Of a DNA stretch of 24,517 bases, positions 2,392 through 22,674 are shown one piece after another. The DNA is from a virus. The DNA is taken from IMG/VR virus record IMGVR_UViG_3300035703_000402, positions 1-24,517 of that record; one strand, written 5' to 3'. The notes under the pieces were generated by a model that ran no database searches, was not told where the DNA came from, and saw nothing but the letters and a program-made list of their open reading frames with translations. Position 1 is the first letter of the stretch, and each line of letters begins with the position of its first letter. Position numbers and translations under genes: made by a program.

Positions 2392-2531
2392 AAATTTTTA
2401 TTGTTATAGATCGCTGGTACAGCAACACAGATTTGATTGCTTGTTTCCGGCGCCGTGAAGAAGCAGAAAAATTTATCAACAATCAAACTAACTCACGCAA
2501 TTTTTCTATCATAGAAATGGATGTAAAATGA
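2388..2531 (+). CDS. 47-residue protein linking primase and nuclease genes
   Basis: This small frame shares ATGA overlaps with both neighbours: its ATG (2388) overlaps the primase stop and its TGA (2529-2531) overlaps the ATG of the next gene. Such double overlap strongly suggests a translated, coupled gene. The sequence begins MKIFIVIDRWYSN and contains CFRRREEAEKFI followed by FSIIEMDV, a strand-helix-strand pattern. It resembles small DUF7336-type domains by general shape only. There is no signal peptide, membrane segment or metal motif. The function is unknown; its place suggests an accessory role in DNA metabolism. Confidence 0.7.
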   Translation: MKIFIVIDRWYSNTDLIACFRRREEAEKFINNQTNSRNFSIIEMDVK

Positions 2532-5500
2532 TTAAACTCGCCCATATAAGTGACACCCACGTCAGAAACTTAAAATATCACGACGAATATAAAATTATTT
2601 TCAATAAAATTTTTGATACTCTCCGCGAAGAGAGACCAGACTATATCGTCCATACGGGCGATATCGCTCATACAAAAAATCAAATCTCACCAGAATTCGT
2701 TGAGATGTGTTCTTGGTTTCTAAAAGAACTTGCCGATATTGCTCCAACATATATAATCCTTGGAAACCACGACTGTAATTTAAAAAATGATACTCGCCAA
2801 GACAGTATTTCTCCTATTGTTTCTGCTCTTAATCATCCAAATCTTACACTATGGAAATACTCCGGTGAGAGATTGATTGGTGATAAGCTTGCGTTTAATG
2901 TAATGTCCTTGATTGACGAGGACAAATGGACTAAACCAAGTGATCCAAACCGGATTAATATTGCTCTTTATCACGGAGCGATTGCTGGTGTATCAACCGA
3001 TATTGGTTATACCCTAGAACATTCAGACCACGATGTAACTATTTTTGAAGGTCACGATTATGCTCTTTTAGGGGACATCCACAAAACAAATCAAATAGTT
3101 GATACAGAAGGTCGTGTTCGTTATGTAGGAAGTACCGCACAGCAGAACCACGGTGAAACTGATGATAAAGGTTTCTTAATTTGGGAAATTGAAGATAAAA
3201 ATAAATTTGATGTTCGTCATATTGTTATTCCTCATCCTCGTCCATTTATCACAATCAAGCTTGATGAAAATGGAAAGTTTGATGAAAGTCTACACATCAA
3301 GCCAGATGCTCGTATTCGTGTTGTCTGCGAACACAATCTTTCTGTAAGTGATATTCGCAAATCTATTGATATAATTAAGGTAAAATTCCTACCTGAAAGT
3401 GTATCGTTCCTCAATAAAGCAACAGAGCGTATTGATATTAGTGATACAATCAAAAAGATTGATACAGAAGATCTACGTAATCTACAAACACAAGAAAAAC
3501 TGTTGCGTGAATACCTCAAAGACTTTAATCCAACTGAAGATGTATTACAAAAAGTATTTGAGATAAATAAAAAATACAATACAATTGCCGAAGAAAACGA
3601 AGAGGTTTCTCGCAATGTTCGTTGGTCGCTAAAATCTCTTAAATGGGATAATCTATTCAATTATGGAACTGGAAACAAAATAGATTTCGAAAAACTACAA
3701 GGTGTTGTTGGCGTATTTGGTAAAAACTTCTCGGGCAAATCAAGCATTATTGATAGCCTGCTTTGGGGAATTCAAAACTCAACCAGCAAGAATGTTCGTA
3801 AAAATGTAAATATTATCAATCAAAATCAGCAATCTGCTAAAACAGAAGTTCAAATCACTGTTGATGATAAACTTTATATTATTGAACGAACAGCAGAAAA
3901 ATATTTAAAGAAACTTGCTGGCGAAGAAACACTTGAAGCAAAAACAGATGTTAATTTTAGTGTTTGTGATGCTGCAGAACAAGAAGATTGTATTACTTAC
4001 GAAAAGGGCAATCTAAATGGTCTTGATCGTAACGAGACAGATAAAAATGTTCGCAAAATATTTGGAACATTAGAAGATTTTCTTTTTACCTCTATGGCTT
4101 CTCAGCTTGGTTCGCTTGATTTTATCAACGAAGGCTCAACTCGTCGCAAGGAAATTCTTGGTAAATTCCTTGATCTTGAACTGTTTGCTAAAAAATATAA
4201 ACTATCAAATAACGATGCTACAGAACTAAAGGCAGCACTAAAACGCCTTGAGAGCAAAGATTTTGATAAAGAAATTGCTGAAACTCTTATTAGAGGCTCA
4301 GAGGCTAAAAAACAGGCTGAAATTCAAACAGCCGAATGTGAAGAAATAAAAGGTGATATTTCTAAATTAACAGATAATATTAATAATATTAATGTTGAAA
4401 TTGCTTCTTTTCCCAAGATAGATGTAGTTGATATTGATAGCGCCAAATCTTCACTAAACAAAACACAAAACGATATTGAGGCTTGGCGTAAAGATATCTC
4501 TACAAATACAAAATTTATTGAAGAAAAACAATCAGCATTAGATAATGCCGCAAAACTTATTGCTGATATTAAAATTGAAGATTTAAATAAAAAGAAAGAG
4601 GTATTAGCAGATAAAAATAAAGAATTAGAAAAAGCATTACGCGAAATAACTGATATAGAAAAAGACATCTTACGAGATCAAAAAGCAATCAAAATCCTTG
4701 ATGAAGTACCTTGTGGCGATAGTTTCCCCACTTGTAAATTCTTAACTGATGCTTTTGCTAAAAAAGATGATTTAGAAAAGAAAAATGATCTTGTAAATAT
4801 TTCAAGTAACAAAAAACAACAGATCGAAGAAGACATCAAGGCATTAAAGCCAGATGAGATAGAAAAATCAATCACAACTCGAAATATTATTTTGGAAAAA
4901 ATCCGAAATATGGAAAGCATTATTTCGAACAAGAAACTTGAGAGTGAAAAACTAAATGGTAAAATTATTGTTTCAATTGGTTTGGTTGAAAAATTAGAAA
5001 AGAAAATTGAAGATTATTATAAAAATGAAGAAACAGCATTAAAACTAAAAGAATTAAACGACAAAAAAGCCGAACTATTAGCAGACAAAACAAAATTAAC
5101 AAAGAAACTTGCTGAGTGTGAAGCAGCAATTCTAAAACTACACCGTGAATATGGCTCATTAGAACAAAAATACGCAGATCTACAGGCTTCAAAAGCAGAA
5201 CTATTAAAACTGCGTGATGAATATGCGGCAATCGCTATGTTTGAAAAGGCGATGCATAGCAACGGTATTAGTTATGATATTATTCGCAAGAAACTACCAG
5301 TAATCAACGAAGAGATTTCTAAAATATTATCAAATATCGTTAATTTCGAAATCTTTTTTGAAGATGATGGTAAAAAACTTGATATTCTTATCAAACATCC
5401 AAAATACGATGCTCGACCGCTAGAACTTTGCTCTGGTGCCGAAAAGAGCCTTGCTGCTATGGCTATTCGTCTTGCTCTAACAAAAATAACATCACTTCCA

Positions 5501-5701
5501 GTAAGCGATATTATGATACTTGACGAACCTGCTACTTCACTTGACGAAGAAAATATGGAAGGTTTTATGAGAATAATTGATATGCTAAAAGCCAATTTTA
5601 AGATAATTATACTTATATCTCATTTGCCCGAATTAAAGGACATAGCAGATATACAAATAACTATTGATAACGTTGATGGTTACGCACACGTGGAGGCATA
5701 A
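2528..5701 (+). CDS. Fused Mre11/SbcD-type nuclease and Rad50/SbcC-type ATPase (T4 gp47-gp46 equivalent)
   Basis: One 1057-residue chain carries both halves of the Mre11-Rad50 complex, which processes DNA ends for recombination. The N-terminal metallophosphoesterase (about 1-240) has Asp9/His11, HTGDIAH (Asp45), LGNHD (Asn80, His81), YHG (His149) and LLGDIHK (Asp183, His185). The ATPase starts near residue 365: Walker A GKNFSGKS (398-405), Q-loop near Gln526, a long coiled coil (about 560-900) with a central turn bearing Cys729 and Cys736, the signature LCSGAEKS (967-974), Walker B IMILDEPA (Glu1000) and H-loop His1032. In T4, E. coli and most organisms these are two genes. The usual CxxC zinc hook is replaced by a C-x6-C arrangement, and the usual GHxH metal motif reads GDIH. 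A second recombination factor (UvsX type) is not in this window. Confidence 0.92.
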   Translation: MIKLAHISDTHVRNLKYHDEYKIIFNKIFDTLREERPDYIVHTGDIAHTKNQISPEFVEMCSWFLKELADIAPTYIILGNHDCNLKNDTRQDSISPIVSALNHPNLTLWKYSGERLIGDKLAFNVMSLIDEDKWTKPSDPNRINIALYHGAIAGVSTDIGYTLEHSDHDVTIFEGHDYALLGDIHKTNQIVDTEGRVRYVGSTAQQNHGETDDKGFLIWEIEDKNKFDVRHIVIPHPRPFITIKLDENGKFDESLHIKPDARIRVVCEHNLSVSDIRKSIDIIKVKFLPESVSFLNKATERIDISDTIKKIDTEDLRNLQTQEKLLREYLKDFNPTEDVLQKVFEINKKYNTIAEENEEVSRNVRWSLKSLKWDNLFNYGTGNKIDFEKLQGVVGVFGKNFSGKSSIIDSLLWGIQNSTSKNVRKNVNIINQNQQSAKTEVQITVDDKLYIIERTAEKYLKKLAGEETLEAKTDVNFSVCDAAEQEDCITYEKGNLNGLDRNETDKNVRKIFGTLEDFLFTSMASQLGSLDFINEGSTRRKEILGKFLDLELFAKKYKLSNNDATELKAALKRLESKDFDKEIAETLIRGSEAKKQAEIQTAECEEIKGDISKLTDNINNINVEIASFPKIDVVDIDSAKSSLNKTQNDIEAWRKDISTNTKFIEEKQSALDNAAKLIADIKIEDLNKKKEVLADKNKELEKALREITDIEKDILRDQKAIKILDEVPCGDSFPTCKFLTDAFAKKDDLEKKNDLVNISSNKKQQIEEDIKALKPDEIEKSITTRNIILEKIRNMESIISNKKLESEKLNGKIIVSIGLVEKLEKKIEDYYKNEETALKLKELNDKKAELLADKTKLTKKLAECEAAILKLHREYGSLEQKYADLQASKAELLKLRDEYAAIAMFEKAMHSNGISYDIIRKKLPVINEEISKILSNIVNFEIFFEDDGKKLDILIKHPKYDARPLELCSGAEKSLAAMAIRLALTKITSLPVSDIMILDEPATSLDEENMEGFMRIIDMLKANFKIIILISHLPELKDIADIQITIDNVDGYAHVEA

Positions 5702-7419: not shown

Positions 7420-7950
7420 ATGGCTGACTTAATGGAAGTAATAAAGGGTATATCCCAAGTAATGGCACAAACTTATGATGGTGCTCGCGATGAAAAAGGT
7501 GAACCAATAAAAACAGGTTTGCGCCGTGAAGATGTTCCTCCACTTACCAGCTGTGAATGCCGTCTCCTTGATGGATTTAGGGCAAGAGTAACACATTATT
7601 CAGATAAAAATAATTCTTTTCCCTGTTTGGTTATGAGCTATCAATCAGAATTAAAATTAGAAGAAGCCCATAATCCAAAACTTGGCGAAAATGTAGAAGA
7701 TCATATATCTGAAGCTCTTAAGTATCTTAAAAAAGAATTCAAAAAAGTAACTGGTAAAGAATTAAGCGTTGAAAAGCACGGTGATGTAAAAATGCTTGTT
7801 GAAGAGCTTTCGAAAATAAGAGTATTTGTTACCGCGCAATGTCATTATAAAATTAGTGGCGTCGATATGCCAAAATTAGAAGATAAAAAAGATGTTGAAC
7901 GCAGCGAACAATTACAAAAATGGCTTAAATTAGGTGGATTTAAAAAATGA
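7420..7950 (+). CDS. Unrecognised protein upstream of the terminase
   Basis: This 176-residue soluble protein begins after a strong AAGGAG site (7404-7409). It has mixed helical and strand content, two close cysteines (CEC, 45-47), and a C-terminus reading QKWLKLGGFKK. That tail resembles the end of the scaffold protein (RWLKLAGIK). No catalytic motif or membrane segment is seen. In T4-like genomes the small terminase (gp16) lies just before the large one; this gene or the next could fill that place, but I see no sequence evidence for it. It is coupled to the next gene by an ATGA overlap. Confidence 0.6.
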   Translation: MADLMEVIKGISQVMAQTYDGARDEKGEPIKTGLRREDVPPLTSCECRLLDGFRARVTHYSDKNNSFPCLVMSYQSELKLEEAHNPKLGENVEDHISEALKYLKKEFKKVTGKELSVEKHGDVKMLVEELSKIRVFVTAQCHYKISGVDMPKLEDKKDVERSEQLQKWLKLGGFKK

Positions 7951-8408
7951 AAATAACCAAATCACGCTTATTACAAATAATTCGAGAAGAAGTTGAATTT
8001 CATCAAAAGAATTTACAAGAAAATTTTTTTGAACTTGATGAAGAAACTTTAGAAGAGTTATCTAAAGAAGAAGGCGAAGAAGCTATAGATCAAGAGATAC
8101 AAACAGATCGAGAAGCTGGAAACCTAGAAGAAGTTGAAAAGGTAAAACACAAAGGTAAAGAATACAAAGCCTCAGCAGCTACAATGAAAGCTATTCGTGG
8201 CGGAGCTGGTGGAGCAGGTAAGGTAACTCCAGCTGAATTCAAAAAAGCAGTTCAACAAGCAAAAAGCTGGGCCGATGATCCGGAAGCTGTTGCTGCTGCC
8301 GGAAGAATTGTAGCAAAGAAAAAAGCTGGAACAATGGAAGAAGCTGATGTCGAAGAAGACAAGTTATTTGATCCGAAAACAAAAAAACCGATTAATAAAT
8401 CAAAATGA
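7947..8408 (+). CDS. Acidic head-associated protein candidate with targeting-like N-terminus
   Basis: This 153-residue protein starts MKITKSRLLQIIREEVE, nearly the same as the start of the 14001 protein (MKVTKEQLQKIIKEELE). The sequence includes I-R-E, matching the (I/L)-x-E consensus cut by T4-type prohead protease. An acidic stretch follows (residues 30-65), then a Gly/Ala segment (IRGGAGGAG) and an Ala/Lys-rich helix. The C-terminus is polar and basic (KTKKPINKSK). It lies directly before the terminase gene, with the junction TGATATATGA. I infer a virion or prohead-core role; no enzymatic motif is visible. Confidence 0.6.
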   Translation: MKITKSRLLQIIREEVEFHQKNLQENFFELDEETLEELSKEEGEEAIDQEIQTDREAGNLEEVEKVKHKGKEYKASAATMKAIRGGAGGAGKVTPAEFKKAVQQAKSWADDPEAVAAAGRIVAKKKAGTMEEADVEEDKLFDPKTKKPINKSK

Positions 8409-8411
8409 TAT

Positions 8412-10010
8412 ATGAGTTATGTTCTTACAAAAGATCAAGTCAAGGAAGAAATAAAAAAGTGTGGTCGTGATCCATCATACTTTATTAATAACTTTTGTAA
8501 GATCGCTCACCCAGAAAAAGGTTTAATTCCATTCAGTCTTTATGGTTATCAAAGCGAAACCATAAAAGATTTCGAAGATTTCCGTTTTAATATAGTTTTA
8601 AAAGCCCGCCAGTTAGGTTTATCGACCGCTGTTGCGGGCTATATTGCTTGGATGTTACTTTTTCGTCGCCAAAAGAGTGTTCTTGTTGTTGCTACAAAAC
8701 TTGATGTTGCTGCCAATCTTGTTAAAAAAGTTAAAAAAATGATAAAGAATGTACCAGATTGGTTGCGTATTGCCGAAATACATATCGACAATAGAAATAG
8801 CTTTGAATTAAATAATGGTTCTTGGATCAAGGCTTCTTCGACAAGTGAAAGTGCCGGACGCTCTGAAGCGTTAAGTTTGCTTGTAATCGACGAAGCAGCT
8901 TTCGTTGATGGTATGGAAGAACTATGGAAAAGTATATTCCCAACACTATCTACAGGTGGTCGTTGTATTGCTATATCAACTCCAAATGGCGTCGGTAACT
9001 GGTTCCACGAAACTTATATAAATGCCGAAAATGGTGCTAATGATTTTCACGCTATTAAATTAAATTGGGACGCTCATCCGGATCGCGATCGTGATTGGTT
9101 CGAAGCAGCAACCCGCAATATGAACCGTCGAGATATAGCACAAGAATACGAGTGTTCGTTTAATGCTTCTGGTGAAGGTGTAATAAATTCTCAAGATCTA
9201 CAAGAAATAAGAGAAGGCGTATTAGAACCAAAATATCGTACCGGTTTTGATCGTAATTATTGGATATGGGAAGAAGCAAAGCCAGAATTTACATACTTAA
9301 TGGTCGCAGATGTTGCCCGTGGCGATGGAAAAGATTATTCTGCTTTTCACGTAATCAAACTCCAAACAATGGAACAAGTCGCTGAATATCAGGGTAAATT
9401 AGCGCCAGATATTTATGCGGATATGTTGCTTCAGACAGGAAAAGAATATAATAAGGCTTTGTTGGTTGTAGAAAATAATAATATTGGATATAATGTTCTC
9501 GATAAATTAATTGAGCGACAATATCCAAATCTTTATTATTCAGTAAAATCAACGCACGAATTCGTAGAGCAATTACAAGCAGAAAGTATGACAAATAGTG
9601 TTCCTGGTTTCACAACAACATTAAAAACTCGACCGCTTATTGTTGCTAAACTTGAAGAATTTATTAGAAATAAAATAATTAAGATATATTCAAATCGATT
9701 AGTTGAAGAACTATCTACTTTCATTTGGAATAATGGCCGACCAGAAGCAATGAAAAATAGAAATGACGATTTAACGATGTCTATGGCGATTGCTTGTTGG
9801 GTGCGAGATACTGCTTTATCAACATCGCAAAGAGATGTTGAGTATACAAAGGCAATGTTTAATGCTATAACTATGGCAAATACACGAGTACAGACTAAAA
9901 TACCAGGTCAAATCGGTTATAATAAAAGTTATTCGTTAGACGAACAAAAAGTTAATACAAGAGAACTAAAAGAATTTTATAAAATGTATGATTGGCTCTA
10001 CAAGGGATAA
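8412..10010 (+). CDS. 17: Terminase large subunit (T4 gp17-like)
   Basis: This 532-residue packaging motor pumps DNA into the prohead and cuts it to length. The ATPase domain has the variant Walker A KARQLGLST (64-72), Walker B LLVIDEAAF (Asp160, Glu161) and coupling motif ISTPNG (188-193). The C-terminal RNase H-like nuclease has VADVARGDGKDYS (Asp300), VENNNIGY (Glu354) and NRNDDLTMSMAIA (Asp452/Asp453). The length is slightly shorter than T4 gp17 (610). No Shine-Dalgarno site precedes the ATG; the previous stop is three bases away (TGA-TAT-ATG), suggesting re-initiation. The portal gene follows four bases after the stop. Confidence 0.95.
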   Translation: MSYVLTKDQVKEEIKKCGRDPSYFINNFCKIAHPEKGLIPFSLYGYQSETIKDFEDFRFNIVLKARQLGLSTAVAGYIAWMLLFRRQKSVLVVATKLDVAANLVKKVKKMIKNVPDWLRIAEIHIDNRNSFELNNGSWIKASSTSESAGRSEALSLLVIDEAAFVDGMEELWKSIFPTLSTGGRCIAISTPNGVGNWFHETYINAENGANDFHAIKLNWDAHPDRDRDWFEAATRNMNRRDIAQEYECSFNASGEGVINSQDLQEIREGVLEPKYRTGFDRNYWIWEEAKPEFTYLMVADVARGDGKDYSAFHVIKLQTMEQVAEYQGKLAPDIYADMLLQTGKEYNKALLVVENNNIGYNVLDKLIERQYPNLYYSVKSTHEFVEQLQAESMTNSVPGFTTTLKTRPLIVAKLEEFIRNKIIKIYSNRLVEELSTFIWNNGRPEAMKNRNDDLTMSMAIACWVRDTALSTSQRDVEYTKAMFNAITMANTRVQTKIPGQIGYNKSYSLDEQKVNTRELKEFYKMYDWLYKG

Positions 10011-10014
10011 ATAA

Positions 10015-12120
10015 ATGCCGGATAATAAACCAATAAATAAAAATGATTATAGAAATATGATGCCTTCTAGGAGAGGTGCTGTCAACCAAGATCGCAGTCC
10101 TTATAATCCACAAAATTCTCTTTTTAAGAGATTAACAAAATTATTCTCCGGTCCAATTGTTAATCGTCGTCAGCAAAATTATAAAAGCGAAAGACGCCGC
10201 AGATTAGATAAATATAAATTTCAATCAGCTCAAGGACAGCAGTTTAAGAAGTCTTCGTATAATCCATTTGATTTCGTACATTCTCAAAGTATGGCTAATC
10301 AAAACCGTGCTGAAAGATATGTTGACTTTGAGCAAATGGAATACACACCAGAAATAGCATCAGCATTGGATATATATGCTGATGAAATGACTACCAGTAA
10401 TTCACTTGAAAAAGTATTAACAATCGATTGTCCTAATGAAGAAATCAAAAATGTTCTTCACGGCCTTTATTATGATATTTTAAATATTGAATTTAATCTT
10501 TTCGGTTGGTGCCGAACAATGTGTAAGTTTGGTGATTTTTTCCTTTACTTGGATATTGACGATAAAGATGGTGTAAAAAATGCTATCGGTATTCCTCCAT
10601 ATGAAGTTGAGCGTATTGAGGGTGAAGATGAAAAGAACCCAAACTACGTTCAATTTCAATGGAATAGCGGTGGTATGACGTTTGAAAACTGGCAGATGGG
10701 TCACTTCCGTATTCTTGGAAATGATAAGTATGCTCCATATGGAACAAGTATATTAGAAGCTGCTCGTCGTATTTGGCGCCAATTAACCTTGTTAGAAGAT
10801 GCTATGATGGCTTATCGTATTGTTCGTTCAGCCGAACGTCGTGTTTTCTATGTTGATGTTGGAAACGTTGCTCCTAATGATGTCGAGCAGTTCATGCAGA
10901 AAGCAATGACCGCATTAAAGCGTAACCAAGTTGTTGATGAAAAAACAGGTCGTGTAGATTTACGTTATAATCCTCTTTCAATTGAAGAAGACTATTTTAT
11001 TCCAGTTCGCGGTCAGCAATCAACAAAAATAGAAAGTCTTGCTGGCGGTCAATATACCGGAGATATTGACGATGTAAAATATCTACGAGATAAACTATTT
11101 TCTGCTATTAAAATTCCTCAAAGTTATCTTGCCCGTGGTGAAGGTGGAGAAGAAGATAAAACAACTCTAGCCCAAAAAGATATTCGATTTGCTAGAACAA
11201 TTCAGCGTCTTCAGAGATCTGTTATCAGTGAATTAGAAAAGATTGGAATTATTCATCTTTTCGTTCTCGGTTATAGAAATGAAGATTTAATTAAATTTAA
11301 GTTAAGATTAAATAATCCAAGTAAGATTGCTGAGCTGCAGGAACTTGAAACTTGGAAAACAAAATTCGAAGTCGCAGCTGCAGCAACAGAAGGATATTTC
11401 AGTAAGCGTTGGGTAGCAAAGAAAATCTTTGGTCTATCAGATGAAGAATTTCTGCGTAATCAGCGTGAAATGTTCTTTGACTTTAAGTTTAAAGCTGCTG
11501 TTGAAAAAGCAGGCACAGAAGCACAAGCTCCAGGAGGAGATGAAGATGCTGGATTGGCCGCTGGTTCATCAGGGTTAGAAACTGGAGGAGGTGCGCCAGC
11601 AGAAGAATCACCAGCAGGTGGAATTGATTTAGGTGCTCTTACTTCTGAACCAGAAGGAACACCAGCCGAAACTCCAGCAGCTGAAACACCAGCAACAGAT
11701 ACTGGCTCGGCCGGTAGTGAAAGTCCACTATTGGCAGCTCCCGGCAAACGAGACGATAGATTAACTTCTACTCCCGCCTCAAAAGGTAAAATGTATTTAC
11801 CGGTAAAATATCGTGGTGGAGATAAGCGTCCTGCTGGAGCTAGAACGCGCAATTATCAATCTAAATTTAACAAAGAATTGAGCGGCGGCTCAATGAGAAA
11901 TGTCTGGGGTTCAGGCACACAAGATTTATTTGGATTGGGTAATGGTATTTATGAAGAATATGAAAATAGTTATAGTAAAGAAATAATTAATGAAAGCGAT
12001 CATTCTAAAGAAACAGATTTAATCGAAGAAAAAATTATGTCTAATAATGATAACTTAAAAAAACTATTGAATTCTTTGGAGAAGAAAACAGCAACAAGGA
12101 AAGAAAACGATGAAGAATAA
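10015..12120 (+). CDS. 20: Portal protein (T4 gp20-like) with long C-terminal extension
   Basis: This 701-residue protein should form the twelve-subunit ring at the head vertex through which DNA enters. The gp20 family is recognised from MEYTPEIASALDIYADEMTT (108-127), EAARRIWRQLTLLEDAMMAYR (about 248-268), the RSAERRVFYVDVGN segment and IKIPQSYLARGEGGEEDKTT (366-384). T4 gp20 is 524 residues; this one adds about 200 at the C-terminus, starting with a low-complexity Gly/Ala/Pro/Glu stretch (about 500-575), then a basic segment and an acidic helical tail. AAGGGA at 10002-10007 serves as ribosome site. The 3' end overlaps the next gene by 11 bases. Confidence 0.93.
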   Translation: MPDNKPINKNDYRNMMPSRRGAVNQDRSPYNPQNSLFKRLTKLFSGPIVNRRQQNYKSERRRRLDKYKFQSAQGQQFKKSSYNPFDFVHSQSMANQNRAERYVDFEQMEYTPEIASALDIYADEMTTSNSLEKVLTIDCPNEEIKNVLHGLYYDILNIEFNLFGWCRTMCKFGDFFLYLDIDDKDGVKNAIGIPPYEVERIEGEDEKNPNYVQFQWNSGGMTFENWQMGHFRILGNDKYAPYGTSILEAARRIWRQLTLLEDAMMAYRIVRSAERRVFYVDVGNVAPNDVEQFMQKAMTALKRNQVVDEKTGRVDLRYNPLSIEEDYFIPVRGQQSTKIESLAGGQYTGDIDDVKYLRDKLFSAIKIPQSYLARGEGGEEDKTTLAQKDIRFARTIQRLQRSVISELEKIGIIHLFVLGYRNEDLIKFKLRLNNPSKIAELQELETWKTKFEVAAAATEGYFSKRWVAKKIFGLSDEEFLRNQREMFFDFKFKAAVEKAGTEAQAPGGDEDAGLAAGSSGLETGGGAPAEESPAGGIDLGALTSEPEGTPAETPAAETPATDTGSAGSESPLLAAPGKRDDRLTSTPASKGKMYLPVKYRGGDKRPAGARTRNYQSKFNKELSGGSMRNVWGSGTQDLFGLGNGIYEEYENSYSKEIINESDHSKETDLIEEKIMSNNDNLKKLLNSLEKKTATRKENDEE

Positions 12121-12955
12121 ACATAACAAAAAAAGAAATACTGCTTTCCTTTATGAAATTATTGTTCGCGAAATTACAAATAGTATTTTAGAAAAAAACG
12201 AACAAAAGAAAAAATTTCTAATAAATGTATGTAAAGCTTTTTTCTCTAAAAATTCTGTTTTGAAAAAAGAATTAGATTTATATAAGGCTGTTAATGAGGC
12301 ATATGAGATGCCAAATAATTTGGCAGAAAAATTGCTAAATGAAGCAAAATATCAATATGATTTATTGAATAAAAAAGCTATCTTTAACGAACAAACAAAA
12401 TTAATAAATATTTTAAATAAAATATCAGACGGAAAGATGTTTAATACTTTTGTACCAGATTATAAAAATTTGGCTACAATTTCACAAATATTTAATAATA
12501 CGACTTCTATCAAAGAAAAAGTTCTTTTAGAAAGTGCTCTTGTTTCGAAAATGGTCTCCTCGCCAGAAAACGCAGAAAAAGAAAAACTTCAAACTGTTGA
12601 TGCTTTGGCTTATAAGTTATTCGTTAAAAAATTTAACGAGCAATATGGAGATACCCTTCTAAAAGAGCAAAAAGAATTATTAACAAGATATGTAATGAGT
12701 TTTGCTGATAATGGAATTGAATTTAAATTATTTTTAAATGAAGAAATAGAAAGATTAAAAACTTCTTTAAAACAAAGCCTAACAAGCAAACAAATAAACG
12801 AAGATAAGTTTCTCAACGAAAAAACAAACATTGTTTTAAACAAAATAGAACAGTACAATAAAAGAGCAATAGACGAAAAAATGGTTCAAGAGGTTTTAAA
12901 AATTCAAAGCTTAATAAAAGAAATAAACTCAGAGGAAACAAATAAAAATGGCTGA
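12110..12955 (+). CDS. Unrecognised helical protein between portal and protease
   Basis: This 281-residue protein is rich in Lys, Glu, Asn and Leu and appears almost entirely alpha-helical, with a likely coiled coil in the last 80 residues. It has no signal peptide, membrane segment, cysteine cluster or catalytic motif. The start follows AAGGA at 12096-12100 inside the portal gene, and the end overlaps the next gene by 8 bases. In T4 this position (between genes 20 and 21) holds small prohead-core genes 67 and 68. This protein is longer, and a similar core role is only an inference from place and composition. Confidence 0.65.
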   Translation: MKNKHNKKRNTAFLYEIIVREITNSILEKNEQKKKFLINVCKAFFSKNSVLKKELDLYKAVNEAYEMPNNLAEKLLNEAKYQYDLLNKKAIFNEQTKLINILNKISDGKMFNTFVPDYKNLATISQIFNNTTSIKEKVLLESALVSKMVSSPENAEKEKLQTVDALAYKLFVKKFNEQYGDTLLKEQKELLTRYVMSFADNGIEFKLFLNEEIERLKTSLKQSLTSKQINEDKFLNEKTNIVLNKIEQYNKRAIDEKMVQEVLKIQSLIKEINSEETNKNG

Positions 12956-13532
12956 TATCAATGTTAAAATAACTGATGAAGACCCTCAGCCAGATCAAGC
13001 AACAGGATTTCAACAGCCAGCACAACAAGAAAAACCAGAAACTCCACCGCAGCTTTTTACAGTTAAATTAAAAGCTAGAAGAACACTTGATGGGAATATT
13101 GTTGTTTCGGATCATCCGGATATCGACATTGTTGTTATGCCGGAAAAAATGAGAGTTATTGCTTTTTCGCGGGACAATTTTGACGATCACATTTATCAAA
13201 CACAAGATCGATTAATGAAATATCTTATCAAAAAAGGTGTTGCTATGCCTGATAGTGTTGCCGGTGGAAATGTATATGGCTCATTAGAAGCAAAAATAAT
13301 AAAACCAGCACAAGAAATACCAATTGATAATTTACTTCTTATGTTGCTATCAAAATGGATTGACAGTGAGAAACCATCTTTTGTTTATCAAAAAGCAATT
13401 GATGATGTTTATACGGATAGAATTACCGAACCAGATGATAAAGAAAGCACTGAACTTGGTGATGTTTCCGCAGCACAAGAAAAAGGCTCAGTACCAATTC
13501 ATCAGGTCCGCCGTTATGCTTATGGTTTGTGA
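12948..13532 (+). CDS. Unrecognised soluble protein between portal and protease
   Basis: This 194-residue protein starts with a Gln/Pro/Asp-rich flexible segment (residues 8-35). A compact region follows with strands such as LFTVKLKARRTLDGNIVVSD and a helix IYQTQDRLMKYLIKKG. The C-terminus is acidic, ending HQVRRYAYGL. There is no membrane segment or catalytic motif. It is translationally coupled on both sides (8-base overlap upstream, TGATG downstream). It is probably a head-assembly or virion protein from its position; I do not recognise the family. Confidence 0.6.
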   Translation: MADINVKITDEDPQPDQATGFQQPAQQEKPETPPQLFTVKLKARRTLDGNIVVSDHPDIDIVVMPEKMRVIAFSRDNFDDHIYQTQDRLMKYLIKKGVAMPDSVAGGNVYGSLEAKIIKPAQEIPIDNLLLMLLSKWIDSEKPSFVYQKAIDDVYTDRITEPDDKESTELGDVSAAQEKGSVPIHQVRRYAYGL

Positions 13533-13840
13533 TGGATAAAATATTAATTTTTATATTAAGTTGTGCTGGCTTAACACAAATTTTGTGCTATGCCAGTATT
13601 CTTAATTGGTTTAGGCCAACAAAAGGTTTGCTTGGTGAACTATTCCGCTGCAGTATGTGTGTTGGATTTCACGTTGGCTATTCAATGTTCGCTGTTTTTT
13701 GGTTTACCGGTGTTTGTTTGTTTCCGAATTTTATTGTTGGAGCATTTGTTTTTGCTCTTATTTCTTCACTTTGTAGTTATATTTTAGATAAAAGTTTTAA
13801 TGATGAAGGAATAACAATAAATTTAAAGAACAAACACTAA
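13532..13840 (+). CDS. Membrane protein, DUF1360-like
   Basis: This 102-residue protein has three hydrophobic segments (about 4-22, 44-61 and 66-84) and a motif FRCSMCVGFHVG with Cys40-x2-Cys43. That pattern (C-x2-C-x-G-F-x-V-G beside a membrane segment) is typical of the DUF1360 family of small phage and bacterial membrane proteins, whose function is unknown. I choose the ATG at 13532, which overlaps the previous stop as TGATG, over the GTG at 13529. A membrane protein among head genes might anchor prohead assembly to the membrane, as proposed for T4 gp40, but that is only an analogy. Confidence 0.65.
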   Translation: MDKILIFILSCAGLTQILCYASILNWFRPTKGLLGELFRCSMCVGFHVGYSMFAVFWFTGVCLFPNFIVGAFVFALISSLCSYILDKSFNDEGITINLKNKH

Positions 13841-13873
13841 TTAGAGAATATTTATAAAGTACGAGGTCTTTAT

Positions 13874-13987
13874 ATGAATTTACTAGATCAAAATATTCGC
13901 AAGTGGTTCCTTCCACAAACCAACAGCCGCAGATGCTGTAAGGGTAGCTGTATCGTGCGGGTTGCGCCCGCATTAAATATTTTTTAA
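13874..13987 (+). CDS. Possible 37-residue ORF in the gap before 14001
   Basis: ATG at 13874 is preceded by GAGGT (13863-13867). The frame reads MNLLDQNIRKWFLPQ, then a Cys/Arg-rich stretch (SRRCCKGSC) and a stop at 13985. A competing frame over the same bases, open from 13888 to a TAA at 13975, reads KIFASGSFHKPTAADAVRVA and then VSCGLRPH, which looks equally protein-like but has no start codon. Either a small protein, a frameshifted gene, or a structured RNA region without coding role is possible. Three hairpins cover the same stretch. Confidence 0.3.
   Translation: MNLLDQNIRKWFLPQTNSRRCCKGSCIVRVAPALNIF
13903..13985 (+). other. Cluster of three hairpins; the last resembles a terminator
   Basis: Stem 1: GTGG/CCAC (13903-13906 with 13913-13916). 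Stem 2: ACAGC/GCTGT (13923-13927 with 13935-13939). Stem 3: TGCGGG/CCCGCA (13956-13961 with 13967-13972), followed by TTAAATATTTTTT, so it could end transcription before the 14001 gene. This stretch is visibly richer in G+C than its surroundings. It may be a structured leader, a terminator/attenuator, or part of a small coding sequence. Confidence 0.45.
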
Positions 13988-14000
13988 AGAGGATTTATCA

Positions 14001-14339
14001 ATGAAAGTAACAAAAGAACAATTACAAAAAATTATCAAAGAAGAATTGGAAGAAATGGTTAAAGAAGAAGGTGAAATGGATGAAGCATTGGGCGGCTTTT
14101 TAAGAGGTGCTGCTGGTGCTCTCGGCGGTAAAGTTGCTGGTGCAGGTCGTGCTGTTGGTGGTGCTTTACAACGCGGCGCCCAAGCTGTAGGCAAACAGGT
14201 TGGAGATATCGCGCAAGCCGGTAAACAAATGAGTGTAAAACAGGATATTACAAACGCTCAGAAAAAAGTAAATGCCTTACGAGCACAGCTACAGCAAGCA
14301 GAACAAGAATTATTAAATCTCCAGGCTAACGCTGAGTGA
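14001..14339 (+). CDS. Small glycine-rich protein with targeting-like N-terminus, candidate head-internal protein
   Basis: This 112-residue protein begins MKVTKEQLQKIIKEELEEM, sharing layout with the 7947 protein and ending in I-K-E, an (I/L)-x-E protease site. Residues about 30-73 are Gly/Ala-rich with repeated GxxxG spacing (GGFLRGAAGALGG and GRAVGGALQRGAQAVG), a pattern found in membrane-active or tightly packed helices. The last 35 residues form an Ala/Gln/Leu-rich coiled coil. The ribosome site is AAGAGG upstream. The gene lies immediately before the prohead protease. A role as a protein loaded in the head, and perhaps delivered with DNA, is inferred by analogy with T4 internal proteins. 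Confidence 0.6.
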   Translation: MKVTKEQLQKIIKEELEEMVKEEGEMDEALGGFLRGAAGALGGKVAGAGRAVGGALQRGAQAVGKQVGDIAQAGKQMSVKQDITNAQKKVNALRAQLQQAEQELLNLQANAE

Positions 14340-14342
14340 TAT

Positions 14343-14945
14343 ATGAATAAATTTCTACTCCGTGAATACTTTGAACTTTGTGAAGGCGGTGTCTGTCAAG
14401 ATCTATTGACAGAGGCTGAAAAAGTATTTGTTAAAAACGGAGGAATGATGCTTACTGGCGTTATGCAGCGAGCAGACGCCAAAAATGGTAATGGCCGTGT
14501 ATACCCAGAAAATATCCTTCGACGCGAAGTAGAAAACTATAAGAAACTTGTTGCTGAAAATCGTGCCCTTGGAGAACTCGACCACCCAGATGAGAGTGTA
14601 ATCAATTTAAAAAACGCTTCTCATATTGTTACAGATATTTGGTGGAACGGGAAAGATGTTATGGGTAAAGTTAAAATATTAACAACCCCATCAGGTCAAA
14701 TATTAAAATCACTTGTTGAAAGCGGAGTTAAACTAGGCATTTCAAGTCGTGGCCTTGGTAGTGTCAGAGAAAAAGCCGGTTTAACTTATGTTGAAGATGA
14801 TTTTCAACTTATTTGTTTTGATTTTGTAAGTGAGCCTTCAACAGTTGGCGCGTTTATGAATTTAAGTGAAAGCAAAAAGTCTCCAAACATTTTTAATAAA
14901 TCTGATAGAATAAATCGTCTGTTAAATGACATAATAGGTGATTAA
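14343..14945 (+). CDS. 21: Prohead maturation protease (T4 gp21-like)
   Basis: This 200-residue serine protease should cleave scaffold and capsid precursors after (I/L)-x-E. It shows the conserved LTGVMQRADAKNGNGRVYP region, ALGELDHP with catalytic His81, and GISSRGLGS (132-140) with the nucleophile at Ser134 or Ser135, as in the herpesvirus-type S78/U9 proteases. VSEPSTVGAF (162-171) closes the core. A DLLTE site (20-24) near the N-terminus may be an autoprocessing point. The junction with the previous gene is TGA-TAT-ATG with no Shine-Dalgarno site, the same ten bases as before the terminase gene. The next gene overlaps as TAATG. Confidence 0.92.
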   Translation: MNKFLLREYFELCEGGVCQDLLTEAEKVFVKNGGMMLTGVMQRADAKNGNGRVYPENILRREVENYKKLVAENRALGELDHPDESVINLKNASHIVTDIWWNGKDVMGKVKILTTPSGQILKSLVESGVKLGISSRGLGSVREKAGLTYVEDDFQLICFDFVSEPSTVGAFMNLSESKKSPNIFNKSDRINRLLNDIIGD

Positions 14946-15394
14946 TGAAGAAAAGTGAATTAAAAGAATTAATTAAACCAATTGTAAAAGAATGTGTTGA
15001 AGAAAGCGTACAAGAAATACTGCTTGAAAGCGGTTTATTATCTGCTGTTATAAAAGAGGTTATGAAAGGTGCTCTGCCGATATTGACAGAGACAAAATCA
15101 CAACCAGTTCAACAGCAACCAGCAAAGCAACAAAAGCCAACACAAAACAATGAATTGTTAGAACAATTAAAACGAGAAAGAGAAGAAATGACTAGTGAAT
15201 TTCGAAAACAAAATTCAGAAGTCAATAAAACAATGTCAATGAAAGTTGGAGGTGTTGATGTTTTTAGAGATACAAAACCAGCACCTGCGACAGTACAAGA
15301 AAGTGTAGCAAATCCATTGGGTGGAGTATCGCCAAACGATCCTGGTGTTGATATAAGTAAATTATTTGGTAGAAAGAAATTTAATATCATTTGA
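14945..15394 (+). CDS. Probable prohead-core or virion protein after the protease
   Basis: This 149-residue protein starts with an amphipathic helix (MKKSELKELIKPIVKECVEE) that continues to SVQEILLESGLL, where L-L-E could be a maturation cleavage site. A Gln/Pro-rich linker (about 51-68) leads into a charged coiled coil (about 69-95). The C-terminal part is Pro/Gly-rich and ends DISKLFGRKKFNII. The start overlaps the protease stop (TAATG). No enzymatic motif is seen. Its location beside the protease and its N-terminus suggest a scaffold-associated role; I cannot name the family. Confidence 0.6.
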   Translation: MKKSELKELIKPIVKECVEESVQEILLESGLLSAVIKEVMKGALPILTETKSQPVQQQPAKQQKPTQNNELLEQLKREREEMTSEFRKQNSEVNKTMSMKVGGVDVFRDTKPAPATVQESVANPLGGVSPNDPGVDISKLFGRKKFNII

Positions 15395-15409: not shown

Positions 15410-15613
15410 ATGAAAGTAAGTTCAGACGAAGTCGACGGAAATGTCGAAAAAATGATAAGGCGTTTTTTAAAGAAAACAAAGAAAATGAGAATTGTTGAAG
15501 ATTGCTATGATCGTAGATATTATGTTAAGCCATCTCAAGCAGAGCATACAAAAAGAAGGGCCAAAGAAAGAGCTTTAGAAAAAGAAAAAGCAGCTCTTCC
15601 AAAAGAAGAATAA
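15410..15613 (+). CDS. rpsU: Ribosomal protein bS21-like
   Basis: This 67-residue basic protein matches bS21 in order and spacing of conserved residues: IRRFLKKTKK (16-25) aligns with the ALRRFKR... region, IVEDCYDRRYYVKPS (28-42) with the ...RRxFYEKP core, and the Arg/Lys/Ala-rich helix after it with the bS21 tail. bS21 binds the small ribosomal subunit near the anti-Shine-Dalgarno end of 16S rRNA and aids initiation. Phage-encoded bS21 copies are known from environmental phages, where they are thought to exchange with the host protein. Here it sits among head and fibre genes with GAGG ahead of the ATG. Another small basic family could mimic the pattern, but the match is good. Confidence 0.75.
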   Translation: MKVSSDEVDGNVEKMIRRFLKKTKKMRIVEDCYDRRYYVKPSQAEHTKRRAKERALEKEKAALPKEE

Positions 15614-19597: not shown

Positions 19598-19675
19598 TTT
19601 TATGCGCATTTATGGTATGTTACTAAAAATAAAACTATTTAATTGAGTAAAAGTGTATTTTCGGGAGTATTTTTA

Positions 19676-20950
19676 ATGAGTAGTTCAAAACTATTAGAAC
19701 AAGCAATCGTCGACGCACAAGCACTGCGAGATTCAGCGTACAAAAACGCACAAGCGGCACTTGTGGAAAAATTTGCTCCGCAAATTAAAGAAGCAGTAGA
19801 AAAACTATTAGAACAAGAAGAAGATCCTGCTGCTATGGCCGGCTCACCAGAAGATGCTCTTGCTGCTGATATTCCAGCTGGAACTGATTTTGGTGGTGCT
19901 CCACCAGATACTTCCGATAAAGGATTTGTGGCAGGAGCGGCAAAAGATGTGCCCTTGGCAGCTACAGATGGAGAAAAACTTTGTCCTTGCCCTGATGACG
20001 AAGAAGAAGTAACTCTTCAATTAGACCTTTCTAAATTAGCAGATGAACTACAAATTGGAAAAGAAGCTGAAGAAGATAATTTAAATCAGCAGCCGATGTT
20101 AGGCGGAATGATGGATCAGCCACCAGCCGTCGGTGGTGCTGCTTTAGCTGAAAATTTAGAATTCGAAGGGATTGAATTGGAAGAAGCCGAAGAATTAACA
20201 GAAGTTGATTTAGACGAAGTTCTTTCAGAAGTCGATGAACCAGAGGCCGATGAAGAAGAAGACGATAAAAATTATAGAAGTGCTTCCGGCCAAGAATTAG
20301 ATAGAATGACAGGCAAATCAAAAGCAGAAAGAAATCCACTTGTTGATGACGATACTTTCCTAGAAGAAGAAGTTTTGGAACTCGAAGAAAGTGAAGAAGA
20401 ATTAAAAAATCCCAAAAAAGCTGATTTAAACAAAGAAGGAAAACTTTCATCTTATGAAAAGAAACGTGGTAAAGCCATAGAAAAATCTATGGGATTAAAA
20501 GAAACAAAACAATTACTACAAGCATCTCAAGCTCTCCTTAAAGAAGTCGAGAACAAAGATGTAAAAATTCAAAAACTTTTGGAAGAAAATAAAAAATTCT
20601 CTTCCACAATAGAAGAAATGTCATTAGCACTTAAAAAACTTGAAGAAGTTAATACATTAAATGCTAAACTTTTCTATCAAAATCAGATCTTGAAAAGCGC
20701 CTCCTTGAATGAGCGACAAAAAACACATATTGTCGAAGCTGTTTCAAAGGCTGATTCTGTAAGCGAAGCAAAAGCGGTATATGAAACATTAGTCAATTCA
20801 GTGGGTGGTCCAGCTGAAAAGGAACGTTCACCAAAATCACTGAATGAAGCGATTAATAAAACAAGTTCATTCCGTTTGCCTCACAAACAAGCAGAACAAC
20901 CACACGATCCAAATAAAGATCGTTGGTTAAAATTAGCCGGTATTAAATAA
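19676..20950 (+). CDS. 22: Prohead scaffolding protein (T4 gp22-like)
   Basis: This 424-residue protein should form the inner core on which the capsid assembles and then be degraded by the protease. It is very acidic (Glu/Asp-rich between 100 and 245), with a helical start (SSKLLEQAIVDAQALRDSAY), a coiled coil (about 280-330) and a conserved basic end DRWLKLAGIK. Many (I/L)-x-E sites are present, as expected for a gp21 target. Residues 250-261 (DLNKEGKLSSYE) fit an EF-hand calcium loop. The longer frame starts at TTG 19643, but ATG 19676 has GGGAG eight bases upstream and is preferred. The capsid gene follows 29 bases later. T4 gp22 is shorter (269 residues). Confidence 0.83.
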   Translation: MSSSKLLEQAIVDAQALRDSAYKNAQAALVEKFAPQIKEAVEKLLEQEEDPAAMAGSPEDALAADIPAGTDFGGAPPDTSDKGFVAGAAKDVPLAATDGEKLCPCPDDEEEVTLQLDLSKLADELQIGKEAEEDNLNQQPMLGGMMDQPPAVGGAALAENLEFEGIELEEAEELTEVDLDEVLSEVDEPEADEEEDDKNYRSASGQELDRMTGKSKAERNPLVDDDTFLEEEVLELEESEEELKNPKKADLNKEGKLSSYEKKRGKAIEKSMGLKETKQLLQASQALLKEVENKDVKIQKLLEENKKFSSTIEEMSLALKKLEEVNTLNAKLFYQNQILKSASLNERQKTHIVEAVSKADSVSEAKAVYETLVNSVGGPAEKERSPKSLNEAINKTSSFRLPHKQAEQPHDPNKDRWLKLAGIK

Positions 20951-20979: not shown

Positions 20980-22674
20980 ATGTCAGTTATCAAAAAATTA
21001 ACAGAAGGTGTCGTTAAGCGTGACCTCGAAAAAGAAGGCGGCGCTCTAATGTCAAAATGGTCGGATACAGGTCTACTTGAAGGTATTGGCGATGAAAGAG
21101 CCAAAGCTTCAATGGCCCGTCTATTAGAAAATCAAGCACAAGAGCTTCTACGCGAAGCAAATACAATGAGTGGAGGTGATGTAGAAGGCTTTGCTGCCGT
21201 GGCGTTCCCAATAGTACGCCGTGTATTCGGTAGCTTAATCGCCAATGAACTTGTTAGCGTTCAGCCAATGAGTTTGCCAAGCGGTCTAATCTTCTTCCTC
21301 GACTTTACTTTTGAACGTGATCGTGGCGCAAATCTACAGGGTTCCTCACTATTTGGTGGTGGCGTTGTAGGCTCACAATTGACCGGCGGTGTAAGCCTCT
21401 CAGGTGTTAATGCTGAAAATTCACTTCGCGCATTAAATCAAGGTTACTCACTTCCAACCGGTTCAGGCAACGTTACATTAAGTTCAGCAGTTGCCTCAGG
21501 TACCTTTGGTGCCGGTGGAGCACTAGATAAGCTATGTAAGTTTGATGCTGACTTTGTCAGTGGCACAACCAATGTTGCTGTATTCACTGTTCCAGTCAGC
21601 TCACTAACCACACTAGATAAGAGTAGTTTGATCGCTATCAACGCTACACTAGCAAGTGGCTCACTTGTTCGTCGTCTAAGTGCCAAGACTGATTCAACCG
21701 GTCTTGTCGATGTTGGTGGCGATACTTATACACACGTTCGCCTTGTTGTTGCCAGCCTAGATGGTTCAGTAAGTGCTGCTGCTCTCGCAACCAATGCTGG
21801 TTCCCGTGCCGCAAGTTGGCCGATTGCTGATGTTATCGGCAACGTTGGTACTTCAATTGGTGCTGTCGTTGCTTCACAGGTCACTTTCGAAGGTGAACCA
21901 GCAATACCAGAAATTGACATCAAAGTTGACAGTGTCGCTGTAACTGCTAAGAGTCGCAAACTCAAAGCAAAATGGACACCAGAACTCGGTCAAGATCTAA
22001 ATGCTTATCATAACCTTGATGCCGAAGTTGAACTAACAAGTATCCTATCAGAACAAATTGGTCTAGAAATAGATCAAGAAATGTTAGGCGAACTTGTCAA
22101 AGGTGCTACCGCAGCAACACTATACTGGTCACGCCGTCCAGGTAAATTCCTTGATCGTGTAACCGGTGCTCCTATTGCTGGCGAAGCAACCGTTGGTGCT
22201 GGTGGTGCTGACTTCACTGGTAATGTTAGTATGTGGTACGAAACACTCGTTGAAACAATCAATGATGTAAGTGCTGCTATCCACCGCAAAACACTTCGTG
22301 GTGGTGCTAACTTCGTTGTTTGCGGACCAGAAGTTGCTAACATCCTTGAATTTACAACTGGTTTCCGTGCCAATGTAGTTCACGATGATGCCAAGGGCAC
22401 AATCGGCGCAGTCAAAGCCGGTTCATTAAGCAAGAAATGGGATGTATTCGTTGATCCATACTTCCCACGTAATCTTGTTCTAGTTGGTCGTAAGGGCAGT
22501 AGCTTCCTCGAAAGTGGATTCGTATATGCTCCATATGTCCCACTACAGGTTACACCAACCATCTTTGGTACTGAAGATTTCGTACCACGTAAGGGTGTTA
22601 TGACCCGTTACGCCAAGAAGATGGTGCGCCCAGATCTTTACGGCCTTGTCGTAGTCCAAGATCTAATTGGCTGA
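20980..22674 (+). CDS. 23: Major capsid protein (T4 gp23-like)
   Basis: This 564-residue protein forms the head shell. It matches gp23 in FPIVRRVFGSLIANELVSVQ (76-95) followed by PMSLPSGLIF, and in EPAIPEIDIKV...KLKAKWTPELGQDL...LDAEVELTSILSEQI. An N-terminal propeptide of about 59 residues is expected to be removed; ELLRE|ANTMSGG (cut after Glu59) fits the L-x-E rule and falls near the T4 site (65). Residues about 115-300 form a Ser/Gly/Ala/Thr-rich region longer and more variable than in T4 (521 residues), probably an inserted surface domain. AGGAG lies eight bases before the ATG. Codons are more C/G-ending than in most neighbours, and a strong terminator follows, all consistent with very high expression. 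Confidence 0.95.
   Translation: MSVIKKLTEGVVKRDLEKEGGALMSKWSDTGLLEGIGDERAKASMARLLENQAQELLREANTMSGGDVEGFAAVAFPIVRRVFGSLIANELVSVQPMSLPSGLIFFLDFTFERDRGANLQGSSLFGGGVVGSQLTGGVSLSGVNAENSLRALNQGYSLPTGSGNVTLSSAVASGTFGAGGALDKLCKFDADFVSGTTNVAVFTVPVSSLTTLDKSSLIAINATLASGSLVRRLSAKTDSTGLVDVGGDTYTHVRLVVASLDGSVSAAALATNAGSRAASWPIADVIGNVGTSIGAVVASQVTFEGEPAIPEIDIKVDSVAVTAKSRKLKAKWTPELGQDLNAYHNLDAEVELTSILSEQIGLEIDQEMLGELVKGATAATLYWSRRPGKFLDRVTGAPIAGEATVGAGGADFTGNVSMWYETLVETINDVSAAIHRKTLRGGANFVVCGPEVANILEFTTGFRANVVHDDAKGTIGAVKAGSLSKKWDVFVDPYFPRNLVLVGRKGSSFLESGFVYAPYVPLQVTPTIFGTEDFVPRKGVMTRYAKKMVRPDLYGLVVVQDLIG

Follow-up and report, generated by a model that had tools for sequence, protein, structure and literature searches.

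An N-terminal peptide shared by unrelated proteins of uncultured T4-like phages: a probable head-targeting propeptide

We analysed the complete IMG/VR record IMGVR_UViG_3300035703_000402 (24,517 bases, hereafter the window), which comes from an uncultured T4-like phage. The window contains a T4-like head module, comprising TerL, portal gp20, the S77 protease gp21, a gp22-like scaffold and gp23, and among these genes lie two proteins, beginning at positions 7947 and 14001, whose N-termini both read MK[IV]TKxxLxxIIxEE. We call this peptide the MKITK tag. The original prediction for this locus had claimed that the two proteins have a common N-terminal peptide and are otherwise unrelated, and that the protein at 14945 carries a weaker version of it. 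The open reading frames (ORFs) and the N-termini are exactly as it gave them, and the weaker version was found as well, in a conserved gene that follows gp21. The tagged genes are the following (a slash marks a putative cleavage point here and below):

7947..8408, + strand: tagged protein 1, 153 amino acids, N-terminus MKITKSRLLQIIREE, directly upstream of TerL
7947..7991, + strand: tag of protein 1, residues 1-15, by match to the DNA pattern
14001..14339, + strand: tagged protein 2, 112 amino acids, N-terminus MKVTKEQLQKIIKEE, in the gp20-gp21 interval (the position of T4 genes 67/68)
14001..14045, + strand: tag of protein 2, residues 1-15, by match to the DNA pattern
14945..15394, + strand: conserved protein directly after gp21, with the weak tag MKKSELKELIKPIVKE and LLE/S at residue 28

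When the 26 N-termini of the window were compared with each other (325 pairs, BLOSUM62, mean -13.3, standard deviation 11.0), the 7947/14001 pair scored 45 over residues 2-18 and the second-best pair scored 29. The window contains two matches to the DNA pattern for the tag peptide and none to its backwards-read control. Beyond the tag, no similarity between the two proteins was seen when they were compared by eye. The 7947 protein has L/I-x-E at residues 14, 25 and 32, and its gene has tagged orthologues in three of the sequences compared (G027, G028 and L413). Regarding the 14001 protein, the PHROG and Pfam searches gave no match above noise, gp67 and gp68 included, and AlphaFold returned an uninformative, all-helical fold of low confidence (pLDDT 53). 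The 14945 gene is conserved and adjoins the 3' side of gp21 in relatives; in other phages this slot is occupied by a strongly tagged protein.

A scan of IMG/VR with a degenerate DNA pattern for the tag gave at least 120 stretches with at least 190 tagged ORFs. A profile built on residues 1-16, applied to loci among the IMG/VR matches listed, widened the collection to at least 710 distinct tagged proteins of aquatic T4-like phages. The tag was located at the start codon in 867 of the 879 matches in all loci compared, and at other codons in 12. There are from 3 to about 26 tagged genes per genome, often arranged in head-to-tail arrays (about 26 in 289 kb in G006, 12 in 191 kb in G001 and 11 in 105 kb in G011). 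A de novo search for recurrent N-termini also recovered the tags, with 0 control matches in the MKITK genomes. Every synonymous codon is in use at the conserved tag residues, therefore the conservation is at the peptide level and a nucleotide-level element was rejected. We also rejected a bacterial origin, because the GTDB genomes (257 Gb) contained few stretches, 11, mostly on short or multi-tag contigs in viral-looking metagenome-assembled genomes (MAGs). Two contigs that had been binned as bacterial each have 7-8 tags: one of 305 kb in the MAG TMED69 (L187, L192 and L194) and one of 101 kb in a Halobacteriovorax MAG (L188 and L190). An S77 protease is also encoded on the TMED69 contig, which is probably from a large phage that was misbinned into the MAG.

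The search with the tag pattern and comparison of the bodies behind it, as the original prediction had proposed, was run on this collection: 690 bodies, taken from residue 26, fell into 436 BLAST groups, and a smaller set gave 145 groups from 171 bodies. The mean identity was 9.7/14 within the tag and 0.9/14 in residues 31-44, and 150 diverse members could be aligned in the first 15 columns only, with the consensus MKITKxQLKxIIKEE. Most bodies were without a match in domain searches. The domains that were recognised, namely a YkuD L,D-transpeptidase (residues 67-212), pentapeptide repeats, sigma-70 region 2 (residues 56-113) and DUF6321, begin after about residue 50 and are clear of the tag. 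The sigma-70 region 2 (Pfam, 9e-11) belongs to a tagged protein of 383 amino acids (L118, 2124-3272, minus strand) that, from its sequence, could possibly be a head-packaged sigma factor. PADLOC, applied to 150 members, gave two weak single matches only (MTase_II, 2.7e-5, and ZorA, 3.3e-4), and the pentapeptide repeats are only suggestive of an anti-defence function.

These results bear on plain paralogy as an explanation of the shared N-terminus, in which all the bearers would be a single family with a conserved N-terminal domain and a fast-evolving C-terminus. The tag presumably did spread via duplication and recombination, and some of the bodies do group together (the largest single-linkage group has 107 of the 690). 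However, the identity falls abruptly beyond the tag, distinct known domains stand behind it, and near-identical genomes exchange whole bodies, so that we consider plain paralogy very improbable. The exchange is seen in relatives whose gp21 is 98% identical to that of the window: the tag is kept (12 of 15 residues), whereas the bodies are near background identity to the 14001 body, therefore bodies are exchanged behind a fixed tag. Near-background identity was found in all 15 loci compared among those with a gp21 at least 90% identical. The Gly-rich body of the 14001 protein, which had been singled out as special and membrane-active, is affected by the same exchange. Relatives with near-identical gp21 have unrelated and often non-Gly-rich bodies, and the membrane-active reading was rejected because the feature is not kept in most relatives.

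The protease of T4 heads, gp21, cuts after L/I-x-E, and the T4 internal proteins carry propeptides of 10-19 residues that are their capsid-targeting sequences (CTS) (PMC9026906). The I-x-E that was said to end the MKITK tag is present at residues 12-14 and is near-invariant, in part by construction because it belongs to the search pattern. A second site, [LIM]xE[AGSQ] within residues 16-35, was found in 153 of the 435 group representatives against 41.8±5.8 in shuffled sequences (z=19), whereas the controls [LIM]xD and [LIM]xQ gave z=-0.4 and z=-1.9. Its position varies from residue 19 to 23 and is often near 22; in the proteins without a site at residues 20-22, [LI]xE is still enriched within residues 16-26 (z=11). 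The residues enriched after the second site, at P1', are A, G, S and Q. Comparable motifs occur in the head proteins of the same clade. In gp23 the alignment shows a conserved [LIV]xE/[ASTQ] at the T4 cleavage position (LRE/A, residue 59, in the window), and each of the 30 gp21 N-termini listed contains L(T/S)E close to residue 24 (LLTE/A at residue 24 in the window). Among the near relatives, the upstream protein has a hydrophobic-x-E at about residue 28 with G or A as the next residue. The relatives read GEL(D/E)E/GF(L) there, and the window's 14001 protein reads GEMDE/AL(G) at the same place. Judging from these motifs, the cleaved site may be the one at residues 12-14, the second one near residue 22, or both, and the tag is likely longer in many bearers, about 20-29 residues, than the 14-16 residues first proposed.

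The head genes of the window are these:

8412..10010, + strand: large terminase subunit TerL (PHROG 2, E=9.4e-54)
10015..12120, + strand: portal protein gp20 (PF07230, E=4.6e-78)
14343..14945, + strand: S77 prohead protease, gp21 homologue (PF03420, E=1.7e-30; PHROG 207), the presumed processing enzyme for the tagged proteins
19643..20950, + strand: gp22-like scaffold, 435 amino acids, assigned by position and composition, without a family match
20980..22674, + strand: major capsid protein gp23 (PF07068, E=3.2e-69)

Among the 28 tagged records with a length of 22 kb or more, 23 encoded an S77 protease (the other five are possibly fragments) and 21 encoded gp23. In a set of 29 IMG/VR records chosen arbitrarily, 2 encoded the protease (Fisher p=4e-9). 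Among the records of at least 100 kb the figures were 13 of 14 tagged against 2 of 4 control records. In all of the 23 records the tags are on the strand of gp21. Furthermore, a tagged gene was found in the interval upstream of gp21 in 16 of the 17 loci with a gp21 at least 90% identical; other loci have a tagged gene directly after gp21, which is the slot of the window's 14945 gene.

Regarding cultured phages, a tblastn search with the 23-residue peptide gave no match, for which the low-complexity filter is possibly responsible, the strict DNA pattern was absent from nine INPHARED relatives, and the full-length 7947 and 14001 proteins had no match in cultured phages. The support from a named phage therefore rests on a different tag, that of Flavobacterium phage immuto (MW353176), which is the nearest cultured relative and in which the strict MKITK tag is absent. 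This phage has its own shared N-terminus, FDLKKFLVENKLT, which ends in L-x-E: four of its genes (starts 1803, 103762, 117587 and 118588) have a start like MENFDLKKFLVENKLTxN and another (start 125197) has the variant MENNFDIHKWQAKFLKE. The host of immuto is Flavobacterium sp. LMO8. Two of these genes lie a short way before terL, in the position of the window's 7947 gene, and the variant immediately follows gp21, which is the place of the 14945 gene. The place that corresponds to 14001, in the gp20-gp21 gap, holds a gene starting with an MKKSQ peptide, which resembles the N-terminus of the window's 14945 protein. The MKKSQ genes of immuto start at 102250, 102836, 113144 and 123311. Together with IMG/VR loci (L555-L674), immuto defines a second class of tags, FDLKKFLVENKLTxNS(R/K)xLxE, whose 113 bodies in IMG/VR fall into 57 unrelated groups. 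The motif lies 3-4 residues after an ATG in 149 of its 154 IMG/VR matches, although the pattern does not demand an ATG, and it was found together with the MKITK tag in 0 of 430 loci. Its L-x-E is located in the stretch of residues 10-13, and 56 of 57 have a further hydrophobic-x-E at residues 23-29 (z=10). All 13 records of this class of at least 38 kb encode an S77 protease. No mention of the tag peptides was found in the phage literature searched, whose coverage leaves out many subscription journals.

It could be argued that the tag is a docking helix for a target outside the prohead, such as the replication compartment, the host RNA polymerase, the membrane or the tail, with the L-x-E being part of the helix and the S77 link marking only the clade. 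Large arrays far from the head genes would fit this (in G006 they are at 38-60, 88-90 and 105-109 kb and gp21 is at 178 kb), and the bodies with sigma-70 region 2 or pentapeptide repeats could be ordinary intracellular effectors. Nevertheless, such a helix would have no reason to contain an L/I-x-E with an A/G/S/Q bias, the tagged genes flank gp20 and gp21, and the immuto-type tag, of unrelated sequence, likewise has two L-x-E sites. We regard docking outside the prohead as improbable.

A third class, MKLLLENWRKYLxE (L710-L825; G009, 33.7-48 kb; G001), has 87 unrelated body groups and begins one residue after the start codon in 169 of 184 matches. It co-occurs with the MKITK tag in 29 of 129 loci, and all 10 records of this class of at least 130 kb encode an S77 protease. 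The terminal E is part of the search pattern, therefore the conservation of this L-x-E is not independent evidence; the N-terminal position and the unrelated bodies are. The peptide has the layout of the T4 sequence MKTYQEFIAE, and a regular expression for that layout, applied to the T4 genome, matches ipIII and ipII and nothing else. In several bearers the core of a HAD hydrolase begins a few residues past the L-x-E.

These hydrolases are relevant to a narrower form of the head-targeting explanation, with which it shares part of our confidence: the tagged proteins would be scaffold or core components only, like gp67, gp68 or gp22, and would be degraded or expelled before DNA packaging instead of being injected as cargo. 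The bearers on either side of gp21, in the gp20-gp21 gap and behind the protease gene, correspond to the T4 67/68 region, the bodies are often short with few recognisable domains, and the 14001 protein was predicted, with low confidence, to be all-helical. However, core parts would be expected to be conserved, whereas these bodies are unrelated and number up to about 26 per genome; some of them are folded domains such as YkuD, and in the third class the HAD domains come right after the L-x-E. As a description of all the bearers, we find it rather unlikely.

We think it quite probable, from sequence comparison, that the MKITK tag is a removable head-targeting propeptide of the T4 CTS kind with a new sequence. 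The original prediction of a tag different from but equivalent to that of T4 is well supported by the comparison: the same tag precedes unrelated bodies, several of its bearers occupy head-gene slots, the L/I-x-E sites show a P1' bias, the tag is linked to S77, gp20 and gp21, and the corresponding slots of immuto are occupied by genes with another peptide. The propeptide would comprise MK[IV]TKxQLKxIIKEE and about 5-14 residues after it. Its amphipathic helix would dock the proteins into the prohead core, where the S77 protease gp21 would cut after L/I-x-E at residues 12-14, near residue 22, or at both sites. The mature bodies would remain in the head, and some of them at least would probably be ejected with the DNA. 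The bearers beside gp20 and gp21, such as 14001 and those in the 14945 slot, are probably prohead-core proteins, and those in arrays elsewhere are probably exchangeable cargo.

Several observations weigh against a head-targeting propeptide. Most of the bodies are acidic, with a median net charge of -5 and only 23% positive, in contrast to the basic internal proteins of T4. A strict second [LIM]xE within residues 17-45 is missing in 129 of the 435 bearers (about 30%), and the first site usually has E at P1', which differs from gp23. The link with S77 in part just reflects that these are T4-like phages, because the control records were mostly smaller. No enrichment of the T4-type late promoter was found upstream of the tagged genes. 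Finally, the tag can be aligned with the T4 peptide MKTYQEFIAEA at MK and I-x-E only, without demonstrated homology.

Another terminal peptide was noticed at the gene that precedes tagged protein 1:

7420..7950, + strand: protein immediately upstream of the 7947 gene, C-terminus QKWLKLGGFKK

It shares this C-terminal peptide with the gp22-like scaffold, which has many L/I-x-E sites and ends in DRWLKLAGIK. The peptide, [RK]WxxL[AG]G[ILF], is common to the scaffold and eight other protein groups. It is found at 20921-20950 and 7918-7950 in the window, the ends of the gp22-like and 7420 ORFs, and also in L221, L215, L232, L379 and L095. In 1.9 million residues, 38 of 41 occurrences were at the C-terminus or at most 10 residues from it. 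An L-x-E precedes it in 6 of 9 against 3.2±1.4, which is suggestive but not significant. Possibly this peptide does at the C-terminus what the tag does at the N-terminus.

A wider reading, which we put forward tentatively and would not yet favour, is that aquatic T4-like phages have a general loading code. The prohead core would recognise at least three unrelated N-terminal tags (MKITKxQLKxIIKEE, FDLKKFLVENKLTxNSRLLNE and MKLLLENWRKYLxE), and perhaps the C-terminal RWxxLAGI, gp21 would trim most of them, and dozens of exchangeable proteins per phage would be delivered with the genome. The cargo, an equally tentative part of this reading, would include cell-wall enzymes, a sigma-like factor, DNA-mimic-like pentapeptide repeats and HAD hydrolases.

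Other features of the window were also observed. Between gp21 and gp22, at 15410-15613, there is a phage-encoded homologue of ribosomal protein S21 (PF01165, 8e-9), which has an equivalent location in Microcystis phage Mel-JY01. A single ORF of 1057 amino acids at 2528-5701 joins a calcineurin-type phosphoesterase and an SMC/RecN ATPase. The counterparts of gp47 and gp46 (Mre11-Rad50 type), encoded by two separate genes in T4, are thus naturally fused here. An imperfect array of the hexamer CCTGCT in 14 copies is located at 768-853, in the short gap that separates two ORFs.

Head loading is known in detail in the T-even phages, with three small internal proteins and Alt. If the tag is reliable, hundreds of hypothetical proteins in metagenomes of aquatic phages become candidate head-packaged and possibly injected effectors that can be read from sequence, and aquatic T4-like phages may have the loading of many exchangeable head proteins as a major strategy. 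Immuto offers a cultured phage for a direct test, and the short peptides could be tried for packaging foreign proteins.

Among known systems, the tag is most like the CTS of T4 IPI-III and Alt (MKTYQEFIAE/A, processed by gp21): both are short N-terminal peptides that start with MK and end with I/L-x-E, on unrelated bodies, in a T4-like head with an S77 protease. However, the MKITK tag is longer, has two L/I-x-E sites and has up to about 26 bearers per genome against a handful in T4; its bodies are mostly acidic and some bearers flank gp20 and gp21. Of the tag classes only MKLLLENWRKYLxE fits the regular expression for the T4 CTS. In phage P1, a reporter can be directed into the head by N-terminal residues of DarB alone, and the cargo counters host defence (PMC9024508). 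DarB thus also has an N-terminal packaging signal, but with another sequence, another protease system and few bearers. In phiKZ and SPN3US, the propeptides of ejected head proteins, often longer than 100 residues, are removed by a prohead protease of family S80 (PMC5694885); unlike the tag, they are not a common short peptide on unrelated bodies. Like T4 gp67 and gp68, the 14001 protein is encoded between gp20 and gp21, but it has no sequence match to them, bears a tag and has an exchangeable body. Lastly, the immuto proteins that begin with FDLKKFLVENKLT resemble the MKITK bearers in their unrelated bodies, their slots before terL and after gp21, the L-x-E end and the S77 protease of the phage, whereas the peptide itself differs.

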